Assembly (NCBI GenBank): GCA_020350205.1
Contig: CP070707.1
Coordinates: forward strand, 2,430,811 to 2,494,810
Length of the DNA stretch: 64,000 nucleotides
Direction: 5' to 3'
DNA from: a bacterium
Lineage (GTDB): Bacteria; Calditrichota; Calditrichia; RBG-13-44-9
Under the pieces are notes generated by a model. It saw only the letters and a program-made list of their open reading frames with translations, did not search any database and was not told where the DNA came from. This document shows positions 8,118 to 11,844 of the stretch, one piece after another. The number at the start of each line of letters is the position of its first letter. Position 1 is the stretch's first letter. Position numbers and translations under genes: made by a program.

Positions 8118-9500
8118 CTAGCGTTTAATAATCCGCAGAAATTGTTCAACTTCGGGAATCCCACCCTGATATATCAGATAACCGTTGTAAGGTTCTCTTT
8201 CGGTTGTTTCTCCGGCAATGGGAGTCAGCATGATTTTTTTTACTTCCTCCAGATCCTCGGTCTGACCCAGTGCCCATCCTAATTTAACATAGGCAACTTC
8301 CGGAAGCATATTGGCACAGGGAACCACCCCCAGTTCCATAATCTCGCGCCCCGTTTCATAGACATACATCTGGACGTAACCCCATAATGTTTGCACGGTC
8401 ATATAGACTGCAATACCTTTTTCGCAGGCCCGTTTCAGAGAAGGATACAAGGGTTTGTTGACATGTCCCAGACCTGTTCCGGCAATAACGATACCCCGAT
8501 ATCCGTTGTCAGTGAGTGAATCAATAATATCCGGTTGCATGTTCGGATAGTAATAAACAATTGAAATTTTCTCTTCGAAACGGGTATTGACTTCCACCTC
8601 CCGATCAATCCGGCGGCGATGATAATTGGTCCGCAGCGGAGTGATCTTTTCCCTGTCCACCATCGCCAGGGGAATATCACCAATAGTTCTGAAGGTGGAC
8701 CGGTAACTGGAATGCATTTTCCTGACCCGGGTACCCTGATGCAGCAGCCCATACTGATCTGAAGTCGGTCCGAACATGCACACCATGGTTTCGGCGATAT
8801 CACTTTCCGCAGCTGTCTTTACGGCATGGATGAGATTCAGGGCGGCATCCGAAGAAGGCCGGTCAGATGATCGCTGTGATCCGACCATAACAATTGGTAC
8901 CGGTGATTTTTGGATCATAAATGATAGGATGGCTGCTGTATGGTGCATGGTGTCTGTTCCATGTCCAATAACAATGCCATGGACTCCATTCCGAATCTCG
9001 CGGCCGATTGCTTCGGCAGTACCTATCCATTGTTCGGGGCCCATGTTTTCGCTGAATACTCCGTACAGTTTTTCGGTCTGGAGGTTACAGTAGTCTGCCA
9101 ACTCGGGTACCGATCCGTATAATTCACCCGGTGAGAATGCTGGAATAACGGCCCCGGTGCGGTAGTCCAGACGGCTGGCAATGGTACCCCCGGTTCCCAG
9201 CAGTTTGACGGTCGGTTTTTTCGCATCATATGGGAATTCTTTTTCCGGAATTTTATAGTGGGCCTCTTTACGACCGGTCTCTTTGATGGAATGAATAGTA
9301 TTTACTGCGATTCCAACGTTGTATCCGTTGTTTAACTTGAGGACGAGATGCCGGTTATCGGCTGTTTCTGAGCGGGGAAGAATGATTCCGGAAAATTTTC
9401 CCCGGCTGGTCTCCATATCTACGGCGCTCCATACCACCACTGAATGTTTTTTCAGAATTGATAATGCGGGTTCTCGATATCCTTTATACTGTTCACTCAT
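8118..9500 (-). CDS. gatD: Archaeal-type Glu-tRNA(Gln) amidotransferase subunit D
   Basis: GatD is the asparaginase-like subunit that releases ammonia from glutamine or asparagine and passes it to GatE for converting Glu-tRNA(Gln) to Gln-tRNA(Gln). This 460-residue protein has a small N-terminal beta domain (about 1-90) and then a type I/II asparaginase core. The catalytic set is visible: T106 in GTGGTIAS, T182-D183 in GHGTDTMH, and K261 in RVRKMHSS, matching the spacing of Thr101/Thr177/Asp178/Lys254 of Methanothermobacter GatD with an offset of 5-7. The N-terminal domain, length and pairing with GatE exclude a plain asparaginase. The start has GGGAGA 5 nt upstream and overlaps the gatE stop by 8 bp, suggesting translational coupling. 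GatDE is regarded as archaeal; its presence here in a bacterial context is unusual. Confidence 0.9.
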   Translation of the reverse strand: MSEQYKGYREPALSILKKHSVVVWSAVDMETSRGKFSGIILPRSETADNRHLVLKLNNGYNVGIAVNTIHSIKETGRKEAHYKIPEKEFPYDAKKPTVKLLGTGGTIASRLDYRTGAVIPAFSPGELYGSVPELADYCNLQTEKLYGVFSENMGPEQWIGTAEAIGREIRNGVHGIVIGHGTDTMHHTAAILSFMIQKSPVPIVMVGSQRSSDRPSSDAALNLIHAVKTAAESDIAETMVCMFGPTSDQYGLLHQGTRVRKMHSSYRSTFRTIGDIPLAMVDREKITPLRTNYHRRRIDREVEVNTRFEEKISIVYYYPNMQPDIIDSLTDNGYRGIVIAGTGLGHVNKPLYPSLKRACEKGIAVYMTVQTLWGYVQMYVYETGREIMELGVVPCANMLPEVAYVKLGWALGQTEDLEEVKKIMLTPIAGETTEREPYNGYLIYQGGIPEVEQFLRIIKR

Positions 9501-11430
9501 GAGAATCTCCCTTTATTGCCTCCCAAACTTGTGCCGCCACCTCTTTACCGGGGACAATACCGCGATATTCCGGCATGATGGCTCCCATAAGGTATTGATG
9601 CTGTTTTCCTGTTTGATCAAATGTTAAGGTGGAATCCTGGACTAATTTTTCAATTTTCATTTTTAGATCAGCAGGCCGCGATTTTTTTAAAGGGGGCGGC
9701 GGTATTCCTTTTTTTTGGGAAAAATCAGCGGTGTTCATGATTTCTTTAATCCAGGCGTCGATATTTTCTAAGAGAGTTATCGACTGCTGAAGGGTATCCA
9801 TCATAGATAACCAGAATTTTTCTGTCAATTTTTTGACTGGATAACCATTTCGCTCCCAATGCCGGGTTTTTTCGAAGATTAAACGTGCAATCTGGTGGGT
9901 CGGGATATGATATTTATCTACCAGTTCTTCAAAAAATTTTGCCCGTGGTGAACTGGCAATTATACGCAACAAATGCTCCGGCACCCCCCATCTTCGGTAT
10001 TTCTCATATCTTTCCCAGAAGGGTTCGGGGACATTTTTTGAAAGTTTAGATAATCTTTTTTCAGGAATTTCCAGGGGAGGTAGATCGGTATCAGGGTACA
10101 TCCGGTCCGGACCGGGAAGAATTCTCTCAAACCCGTTGGTCCCGTCCTCCAGCGCCTGACGTGTCTCACTGGGGATACCTATCGTCGCTTCCTTTGCCCG
10201 GATGATAATTTCATTGACCCCGGTAATCACATCTTCTTTGTTGCCCCAAACCAAGACCTGGGCATCACGACTTCCGGCGCGGAGTGATTTTCGTATCTTT
10301 TGCCAGGTAAAACTGTCGATCATTTCCTCGGTACTCTCGGAGGTTAGAATGTTTGGAATTCTTGTGAGACATGCGATCACCCGCACCCGATCGGATATTT
10401 CCTTGGAAAATACCTTTGCAGATTGGGTACTTTGACTTAGAATACCTGAATAGCCGAGTAAATTAACACAATGAATTTCTTCTCCCCGTTCCAGGGCTTG
10501 TCTCAGAGGTTCCCAGGAGGTTTTAGTCAGTAAATGAGTGACATTTTCAGACCGCGCCTGGAAGCTTTTTTCGGTAATTCCTCTGCGCTTCAATTCCTCC
10601 CGGATTTTCAGGAGTGAATACTGCCGTCGCGCTTCATTATAGATAAGGCGTGGTAGCAGCGGAATGCGGGAGACCCCCTTGATTTCAACCCGGGTTCCAC
10701 CATCAACGCTCACATTTACATCCTGGCGGGCTGCACCGATTCCGGTTCTGACTTTGCCGGTGCTCCGTACCGTCCATCTAAGAATGTTGGCAACCTCAGC
10801 TGCCTCCTGAGGTGTATGCATATCTGCCTGAGTTACAATTTCAATCAAGGGCATACCCAGCCTGTCGGTACGGTATACTCGCAAATGACCTTCATCCGAG
10901 ACTTCCCGGCAGGCATCCTCTTCCAGTCCTAATTGAATCAGTCCGATTTTCCTATCTTTATAAGGGATCCACCCATCGATACCAACGATGGTTGTTCGCT
11001 GGAAGCCGGTGGGGATGCTTCCGTCAAGGTATTGTTTGCGGGCTATATGAATTTCGCTGACCAGTTTATACTTGAACAAAAGTGCAATTTCAATTGCGAT
11101 ATCCAAGGCTTGCTGGTCGATCTCGAACGGTGGTGTATCATCCATTTCGTAAGTACATACCGATTCGTGGTTGATCTGATAGATGATTTCTTTCTTGGTT
11201 TTGAATTCCATGAGTGCAGTTCCGTCATATTCACCCAGTTCGGAGAGGGTGGGTCTCATATGACGCAGGATTTCAGCATCGAACAGCTTACTGTATTGCC
11301 CGGCAGGACAACGGCAGAACAGTTTTTTTAGCGTGAATAGTTGTTGGTGAATTTCCAACCCCACTTTTAATCCGATTTCTGCGTAGTCGGAAGCAGTCAT
11401 GTCAGTAAAATTTTTAAAAGAGATGTTCAT
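9493..11430 (-). CDS. gatE: Archaeal-type Glu-tRNA(Gln) amidotransferase subunit E
   Basis: GatE binds tRNA(Gln), phosphorylates the misacylated glutamate with ATP and amidates it using ammonia from GatD. The 645-residue protein has the GatB/GatE cradle domain (VGLEIHQQL at about 24-32, LFCRCP, RPTLSELGEYDG, LIQLGLEEDACRE, DRLGMPLIEIVTQ, RQDVNVSV). From about residue 280 to 420 it carries the AspRS-like (GAD) insertion that distinguishes GatE from GatB, followed by PGPDRMYPDTDLPP. A helical region and a C-terminal YqeY-like domain end it (YLMGAIMP, GKEVAAQVW). The ATG at 11430 has AAAGG 6 nt upstream; an internal ATG at 11400 is a less likely start. It precedes gatD with an 8-bp overlap. Base usage does not visibly differ from neighbours, so any transfer would be old. 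I see no gatA, gatB or gatC in the window. Confidence 0.92.
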   Translation of the reverse strand: MNISFKNFTDMTASDYAEIGLKVGLEIHQQLFTLKKLFCRCPAGQYSKLFDAEILRHMRPTLSELGEYDGTALMEFKTKKEIIYQINHESVCTYEMDDTPPFEIDQQALDIAIEIALLFKYKLVSEIHIARKQYLDGSIPTGFQRTTIVGIDGWIPYKDRKIGLIQLGLEEDACREVSDEGHLRVYRTDRLGMPLIEIVTQADMHTPQEAAEVANILRWTVRSTGKVRTGIGAARQDVNVSVDGGTRVEIKGVSRIPLLPRLIYNEARRQYSLLKIREELKRRGITEKSFQARSENVTHLLTKTSWEPLRQALERGEEIHCVNLLGYSGILSQSTQSAKVFSKEISDRVRVIACLTRIPNILTSESTEEMIDSFTWQKIRKSLRAGSRDAQVLVWGNKEDVITGVNEIIIRAKEATIGIPSETRQALEDGTNGFERILPGPDRMYPDTDLPPLEIPEKRLSKLSKNVPEPFWERYEKYRRWGVPEHLLRIIASSPRAKFFEELVDKYHIPTHQIARLIFEKTRHWERNGYPVKKLTEKFWLSMMDTLQQSITLLENIDAWIKEIMNTADFSQKKGIPPPPLKKSRPADLKMKIEKLVQDSTLTFDQTGKQHQYLMGAIMPEYRGIVPGKEVAAQVWEAIKGDSHE

Positions 11431-11844
11431 CGAAAGCCTTTACTTTTGAAATCAGAATTTTTCAATGATATGATCGACCCGAAGTCATGACAATGAAATA
11501 GAATTTGTAAATCGATTTTACTTTGTTAAAAATATCACTTAAAATACAATTTTAAGTTTTTTAAAATCAAGCAAAAAGATAAATGAATTCCGAAAATCTG
11601 TGATAAAGGATGAATGCATACTAAAAATAAAAAGGGTCGTACTGTACAAAAAATGTGAGGAGGCACTATGCGCGGGACGCATATCATTTGTATCAGTACG
11701 ACCCTACATGTATATCAACCCAAAACTTGACAAAGGGTTCCCGGTTAAAGATAAATCACTACAAACAATTATAATTCAACAGGAAAATACGACAAATGCT
11801 TGAATAACAAAGAATTAGAAGATATTGATGAAAGGCGGGTTGGC
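11431..11844. other. Leader/intergenic region upstream of gatE
   Basis: A/T-rich non-coding DNA between the small Cys-rich gene and gatE, both read on the minus strand. Its one striking element is the nested palindrome at 11634-11704. A 67-codon open frame on the plus strand (11600-11803) runs straight through that palindrome and has no family resemblance, so I do not call it a gene. I found no promoter that I would defend. Confidence 0.5.
11634..11704. repeat. 71-bp nested palindromic element upstream of gatE
   Basis: The outer arms GGGTCGTACTG (11634-11644) and CAGTACGACCC (11694-11704) are perfect 11-bp complements. Inside them TACAAA..ATG (11645-11655) pairs imperfectly with CATTTGTA (11685-11692), and ATGCG (11668-11672) pairs with CGCAT (11678-11682) around CGGGA. 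It could be a REP/MITE-like repeat, a terminator for the upstream minus-strand gene, or a structured gatE leader. No T-tract follows in the minus direction. Confidence 0.6.

Follow-up and report, generated by a model that had tools for sequence, protein, structure and literature searches.

A predicted GatDE tRNA-dependent amidotransferase in a Calditrichota genome that also encodes glutaminyl-tRNA synthetase

The window, i.e., the whole stretch of 64,000 nucleotides analysed here, lies in a Calditrichota genome (contig CP070707.1) and carries gatE and gatD, the genes for both subunits of an amidotransferase of the archaeal GatDE type. Judging from sequence comparison, the pair is near certain to be a genuine tRNA-dependent amidotransferase belonging to a bacterial lineage of GatDE. 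The same genome encodes a glutaminyl-tRNA synthetase (GlnRS), and GatDE probably acts beside it, amidating Glu-tRNA(Gln) that would arise from imperfect charging by glutamyl-tRNA synthetase (GluRS). The features concerned are the following.

Positions 9493..11430, minus strand: gatE, intact, 645 amino acids, with a GatB/E cradle domain, a GAD-type insertion (about residues 290-430) and a C-terminal YqeY-like tail; the predicted product is Glu-tRNA(Gln) amidotransferase subunit E, the tRNA-binding kinase/transamidase subunit.
Positions 8118..9500, minus strand: gatD, intact, 460 amino acids, with a GatD_N domain, an asparaginase-like core and an extra conserved C-terminal tail; the predicted product is Glu-tRNA(Gln) amidotransferase subunit D, an asparaginase-like glutaminase supplying ammonia.
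Positions 9493..9500, minus strand: 8 bp in which gatE stop and gatD start overlap, ATGAGTGA.
Positions 8118..8187, minus strand: the C-terminal extra stretch of GatD, about residues 438-460, NGYLIYQGGIPEVEQFLRIIKR.

The initial annotation, made from the letters of the window alone, had described two full-length genes overlapping by 8 bp on the minus strand, and both were found intact. Window GatE scored 541 bits on the NCBI equivalog model NF003107 (cut-off 456) and 465 bits on TIGR00134 (cut-off 320), while its best score on GatB models, 142 bits, was far under the cut-off of 338. GatD reached 521 bits on TIGR02153 (cut-off 324) and also passed the cut-off of NF003217. Pfam recognised the GatB/GatE catalytic domain in GatE, and GatD_N (PF18195, residues 27-73) together with the asparaginase domains PF00710 and PF17763 in GatD. 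The GAD-type insertion, read earlier as a mark of GatE, aligned from end to end with the full-length GatE of Pyrococcus abyssi (1zq1 chain C). The Pfam models GAD and GatB_Yqey were matched in 21 and 29 of the 37 relatives, respectively, and neither was seen in window GatE itself at E<=1.

The N-terminal domain and the active-site residues proposed for GatD also held. T106, T182-D183 and K261 line up with the active-site positions of Methanothermobacter thermautotrophicus GatD and were invariant in 27 bacterial GatD sequences. In GatE, residues E26, H28, E170, E171 and others were conserved in every archaeal and bacterial sequence compared, and the core residues common to archaeal GatE were all kept in bacterial GatE. 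The closest solved proteins by sequence were GatE and GatD of P. abyssi and M. thermautotrophicus. AlphaFold models, made from bacterial alignments, gave the same picture: the GatE model (mean predicted local distance difference test, pLDDT, 84) had its best PDB fold matches in GatE of 1zq1 and 2d6f, ahead of GatB of GatCAB, and the GatD model (pLDDT 77) in GatD of 2d6f and 1zq1, ahead of asparaginases. The chemistry is most likely unchanged from that of the archaeal enzyme. The C-terminal stretch of GatD extends past the chain end of both solved archaeal GatD proteins; the alignments to 1zq1_A (438 aa) and 2d6f_A (435 aa) end at query residues 442 and 436, respectively. Its residues G440, Y441, Q445, P449, E450 and F454 were invariant in the 27 bacterial GatD, and its placement in the model was of low confidence.

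An assembly chimera, i.e., an archaeal stretch wrongly joined to a bacterial contig, had been named in the initial annotation as an alternative to be checked, and we rejected it as extremely improbable. The window sits in a single contig of 4,063,086 bp, and in an independently assembled metagenome-assembled genome (MAG), Caldithrix sp. RBG_13_44_9 (L063), the same genes flank gatED on both sides, with yifB 83% identical and three further flanking genes 42-54% identical. The GC content at third codon positions (GC3) was 0.46 and 0.49 for the pair, compared to 0.45 +/- 0.04 in 29 other long open reading frames of the window, so that the earlier remark on ordinary base usage stood. Contiguity, flank synteny and a GC3 like that of the neighbours together exclude both a chimera and a recent import. 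The closest GatE relatives were bacterial, with 59-72% identity, while the archaeal GatE of 1zq1, found as a fold match, reached only 38%. The nearest named relatives were Caldithrix sp. RBG_13_44_9 and other Calditrichota. Since L063 and L040, a locus of the same-genus genome G038, gave identical alignments to the window gene, we infer that this MAG and G038 are the same genome.

The pair is not the isolated oddity that it seemed to be when the window was read alone. GatE was found over cut-off in nine of 40 genomes of the phylum, and a tenth genome has a fragment. GatB was found in 24 of the 40, one of them (G037) with GatE too, and seven had neither. The incompleteness of MAGs bears on all calls of absence, here and below. 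When the GTDB collection was scanned with an alignment of Calditrichota GatE, at least 563 relatives were confirmed. The best 80 of these were all bacterial and came from Calditrichota, Ignavibacteriota, Bacteroidota, Aminicenantota, Krumholzibacteriota, Fermentibacterota, Latescibacterota, Zixiibacteriota, Myxococcota, Planctomycetota, Elusimicrobiota and others. Bacterial GatE thus spans at least ten phyla, and its carriers are hundreds of uncultured bacteria. Within an Ignavibacteria class, that of G048, GatE was present in 108 of an even sample of 391 genomes; among 14 control genomes surveyed with them it was found solely in the four archaea. Names of MAGs can be wrong, which calls for caution over any one phylum, yet breadth of this kind is hard to explain by misnaming.

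The arrangement of the two genes was conserved as well, gatD following gatE immediately, in the same orientation, at 72 of the 74 loci holding both. Because the gatE stop overlaps the gatD start by 8 bp in the window, the genes are indicated to form a translationally coupled two-gene operon. At one other locus gatD was found on the opposite strand (L135), and at another in front of gatE (L131). Five deep-branching, divergent bacterial gatE loci with enough flanking sequence (L122, L124, L126, L129 and L132) had no gatD inside the fetched flank; a split locus or a GatE without GatD may therefore exist. Beyond gatED itself, the neighbourhoods of bacterial gatED loci held no conserved partner hinting at function.

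In a tree of 85 bacterial and three archaeal GatE sequences the two domains were separated with full support, the Calditrichota fell mostly together, and window GatE grouped with its genus. A separate tree was rooted with GatB. There GatE was split from GatB with support 100/100, settling the clustering that the initial annotation had left to be checked, and the archaeal (n=3) and bacterial GatE were sister groups (support 100/99 and 89/93). By these trees bacterial GatE forms one deep group, and the event behind it is old. Of the two origins offered earlier, an old inter-domain transfer or a little-described bacterial lineage, the lineage is borne out as a deep clade of many phyla and so is the age of the event, while a recent archaeal donor was rejected, window GatE lying inside the deep bacterial clade and having an ordinary composition. 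Whether the lineage began with one old transfer from archaea to bacteria and then spread from phylum to phylum, or is older than the divergence of the two domains, is for us an even call. Most bacteria are without GatDE, and the distribution is patchy and mixed by phylum, the tree needing 29 label changes against a minimum of 17, which speaks for transfer. However, archaeal and bacterial GatE are separate sisters under the GatB root, so no archaeal donor is visible, and with three archaeal sequences the test has low power and cannot separate the two origins. Either origin leaves the function unchanged.

Two further observations were made on GatE sequences. Firstly, a second, long-branched bacterial clade (branch 0.83; L129, L132, L134, L136-L140 and L142) has hosts in Bacteroidales and Zixiibacteriota, one Aminicenantes and one Calditrichota bin, and is possibly a distinct subtype. 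Secondly, a haloarchaeal gatE (L243, 2917-4868) lies on the 987-kb plasmid CP031304 of Natrinema thermotolerans, unannotated and apparently split by a frameshift; it was one of the archaeal sequences used in the tree. Bacterial GatDE was not found on plasmids.

The survey of the genome suggested in the initial annotation found no GatB; window GatE is the only protein of the GatB/GatE family, GatA and GatC not having been searched separately. It did find GlnRS, which is full length (566 aa) and over cut-off, carries the HIGH and SKRKL motifs and is strongly homologous to solved GlnRS proteins. In addition, the genome encodes asparaginyl-tRNA synthetase (AsnRS), AsnB, a bacterial aspartyl-tRNA synthetase (AspRS) and two bacterial GluRS. 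The archaeal-style role that the initial annotation implied, with GatDE as the route to Gln-tRNA, can therefore not be carried over as it stands: since GlnRS is present, GatDE is not the sole glutamine route here, unlike in archaea. The combination is common, as GlnRS is encoded in 43 of 50 GatE-bearing bacterial genomes, over cut-off in 42, and its gene often adjoins gltX. Among the 43, 14 also have GatB and 29 lack a full GatB; GatB was found in 19 of the 50 overall. Nine bins, several of them Ignavibacteria/Melioribacteraceae (G045, G046, G047, G054, G055, G060, G064, G065 and G068), matched GatB, GatE and GlnRS together, i.e., two amidotransferases plus the direct route in one cell.

The prediction for the catalysis, the cellular substrate and the reason why both routes are kept is as follows. 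Mischarging by GluRS would supply Glu-tRNA(Gln). GatD would release ammonia from glutamine, and GatE would bind Glu-tRNA(Gln), activate the glutamate side chain with ATP and amidate it to Gln-tRNA(Gln). The product would serve as a correction, or as a second supply, next to GlnRS. The likeliest source of Glu-tRNA(Gln) would be the CUG isoacceptor, the D arm of which resembles that of tRNA-Glu:

L026 (G000:C1:1906202-1906272): tRNA-Gln(CUG), compared with L025, L276-L278, L282 and L285.

This tRNA has U11-A24, U13.G22 and a variable loop of 4 nt, like tRNA-Glu and unlike tRNA-Gln(UUG). Three relatives with GatCAB also have this tRNA-Glu-like tRNA-Gln(CUG), and a similar tRNA occurs in a GatE genome in which no GlnRS was detected. 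In G031, the only amidotransferase-free genome read, the body of tRNA-Gln(CUG) is UUG-like; the genomes read are far too few to test CUG tRNA against amidotransferase. Acidithiobacillus ferrooxidans GluRS1 charges tRNA-Gln(CUG) and not tRNA-Gln(UUG) (PMC3927822). A stricter division of glutamine coding, in which GlnRS charges tRNA-Gln(UUG) while tRNA-Gln(CUG) is glutamylated by GluRS and amidated by GatDE, we consider fairly unlikely. If it were true, GatCAB would play the part of GatDE in sister lineages, and loss of the amidotransferase would need a CUG isoacceptor readable by GlnRS, a prediction that the UUG-like tRNA of G031 fits. The genome also holds a tRNA-like gene (L032 1501-1576; G000:C1:3227972-3228047) that scores 44 bits on the Rfam tRNA model, although ARAGORN did not call it; its acceptor, D and T arms are normal, and its anticodon arm can be folded as a 7-bp stem and a 6-nt loop (CUUGAAU-GGAUUC-AUUCAAG).

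Several observations weigh against GatDE acting beside GlnRS on mischarged tRNA. Both tRNA-Gln found have the bacterial U1-A72 pair, while archaeal GatDE reads A1-U72, and no tRNA-Gln with A1-U72 was seen among the scored candidates (150 of 204) of the tRNA scan. Both GluRS carry arginine at the position of R358 of Thermus thermophilus, a mark of discriminating enzymes, which suggests that both discriminate and that little Glu-tRNA(Gln) might be made. The second GluRS has its best solved match in PDB 6b1p, glutamate--tRNA ligase 1, which we take to be the Helicobacter pylori GluRS. Arg358 was found in most GluRS of GatDE bacteria, and glycine or serine in three Calditrichota without GlnRS. Residue 358 is without such an effect in H. 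pylori GluRS1, and does not decide the matter in every phylum (PMC3927822). Furthermore, some members of the phylum encode GlnRS but no amidotransferase, which makes GatDE dispensable at the level of the phylum. Finally, a contrast in AsnB that favours Gln over Asn as the amino acid served is a weak one: AsnB was kept in all eight GatE-only Calditrichota more than 70% complete and in 12 of 23 GatB-only genomes, but the difference (Fisher p = 0.03) takes no account of kinship and loses significance when other completeness cuts are used.

That GatDE and GluRS are the main source of Gln-tRNA(Gln), the resident GlnRS being non-functional or otherwise employed, is in our opinion unlikely. A second GluRS in the genome would suit such a route, and a survey suggested that lone-member GlnRS, e.g., that of Ignavibacterium album, may not work (PMC3927822). 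The window GlnRS is, however, complete with both motifs, and GlnRS is over cut-off in 42 of the 50 GatDE bacteria, of many phyla and often beside gltX, which points to lasting selection on it; both GluRS, moreover, look discriminating at position 358. A tie between GatDE and a second GluRS was also tried and rejected, as outside Calditrichota a single GluRS is found in most GatDE bacteria, and since amidotransferase-free Calditrichota also have two.

Recruitment of GatDE to another aminoacyl-tRNA or acyl substrate, e.g., Asp-tRNA(Asn) or a special tRNA, with no role left in glutamine coding, appears quite unlikely. The direct routes to both Gln and Asn are complete, and the tail of bacterial GatD is not found in the archaeal chains, as would suit a new substrate. 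Still, both subunits pass the equivalog cut-offs and all archaeal GatE core residues are kept. As to asparagine, the retention of AsnB in the eight reasonably complete GatE-only Calditrichota speaks against Asp-tRNA(Asn), and agrees with an enzyme that would serve Gln rather than Asn. Replacement of the Asn route by GatDE was likewise judged unlikely, AsnRS and AsnB both being present in the window genome.

Next to gatE in the window, between it and the upstream gene, a long inverted repeat (AGGGTCGTACTG...CAGTACGACCCT) with a T-rich run behind it was found at 11630-11712; it probably terminates transcription of that upstream gene.

According to reviews, GatDE is confined to archaea, GlnRS is absent from all archaea, and the co-evolution of GatDE with tRNA-Gln (A1-U72) explains why GlnRS never entered them (PMC9499178; PMC8007984). 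Among open-licence papers we found no account of bacterial GatDE; an earlier report may exist, and automatic annotation, whose NCBIfam models match these genes, may already contain the finding implicitly. A GatDE lineage spread broadly through bacteria and coexisting with GlnRS contradicts the archaea-only statement. The co-evolution account becomes testable here, since the two enzymes evidently draw on a single tRNA-Gln pool, and bacterial GatDE bears on whether the last common ancestor had GatDE.

Compared with known systems, the window pair shares with archaeal GatDE (P. abyssi 1ZQ1; M. thermautotrophicus 2D6F) the two-subunit architecture, the GatE cradle with GAD-type insertion and YqeY-like tail, and the GatD N-terminal domain, asparaginase core and active-site residues. 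It differs in its bacterial host with GlnRS, AsnRS and AsnB, in the U1-A72 instead of A1-U72 pair of tRNA-Gln, in the separate deep clade of its GatE, and in the extra conserved tail of its GatD. The archaeal obligate indirect pathway, which pairs GatDE with a non-discriminating GluRS, goes with an absence of GlnRS and an A1-U72 tRNA-Gln, and the window genome departs from it by its GlnRS and by the U1-A72 pair of both tRNA-Gln found. With bacterial GatCAB it shares homology of GatB and GatE, with a common catalytic cradle and tail, and the amidation of mischarged tRNA; some bacteria keep GatCAB beside GlnRS, as the window genome keeps GatDE (PMC3927822). GatB, however, has no insertion and works with GatA and GatC, and GatCAB can also make Asn-tRNA(Asn). 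The GluRS2 and GatCAB route of epsilon- and gamma-proteobacteria resembles the present case in having a second GluRS, whereas that of the window genome carries Arg358, has its best solved match in 6b1p, and is not tied to GatDE.

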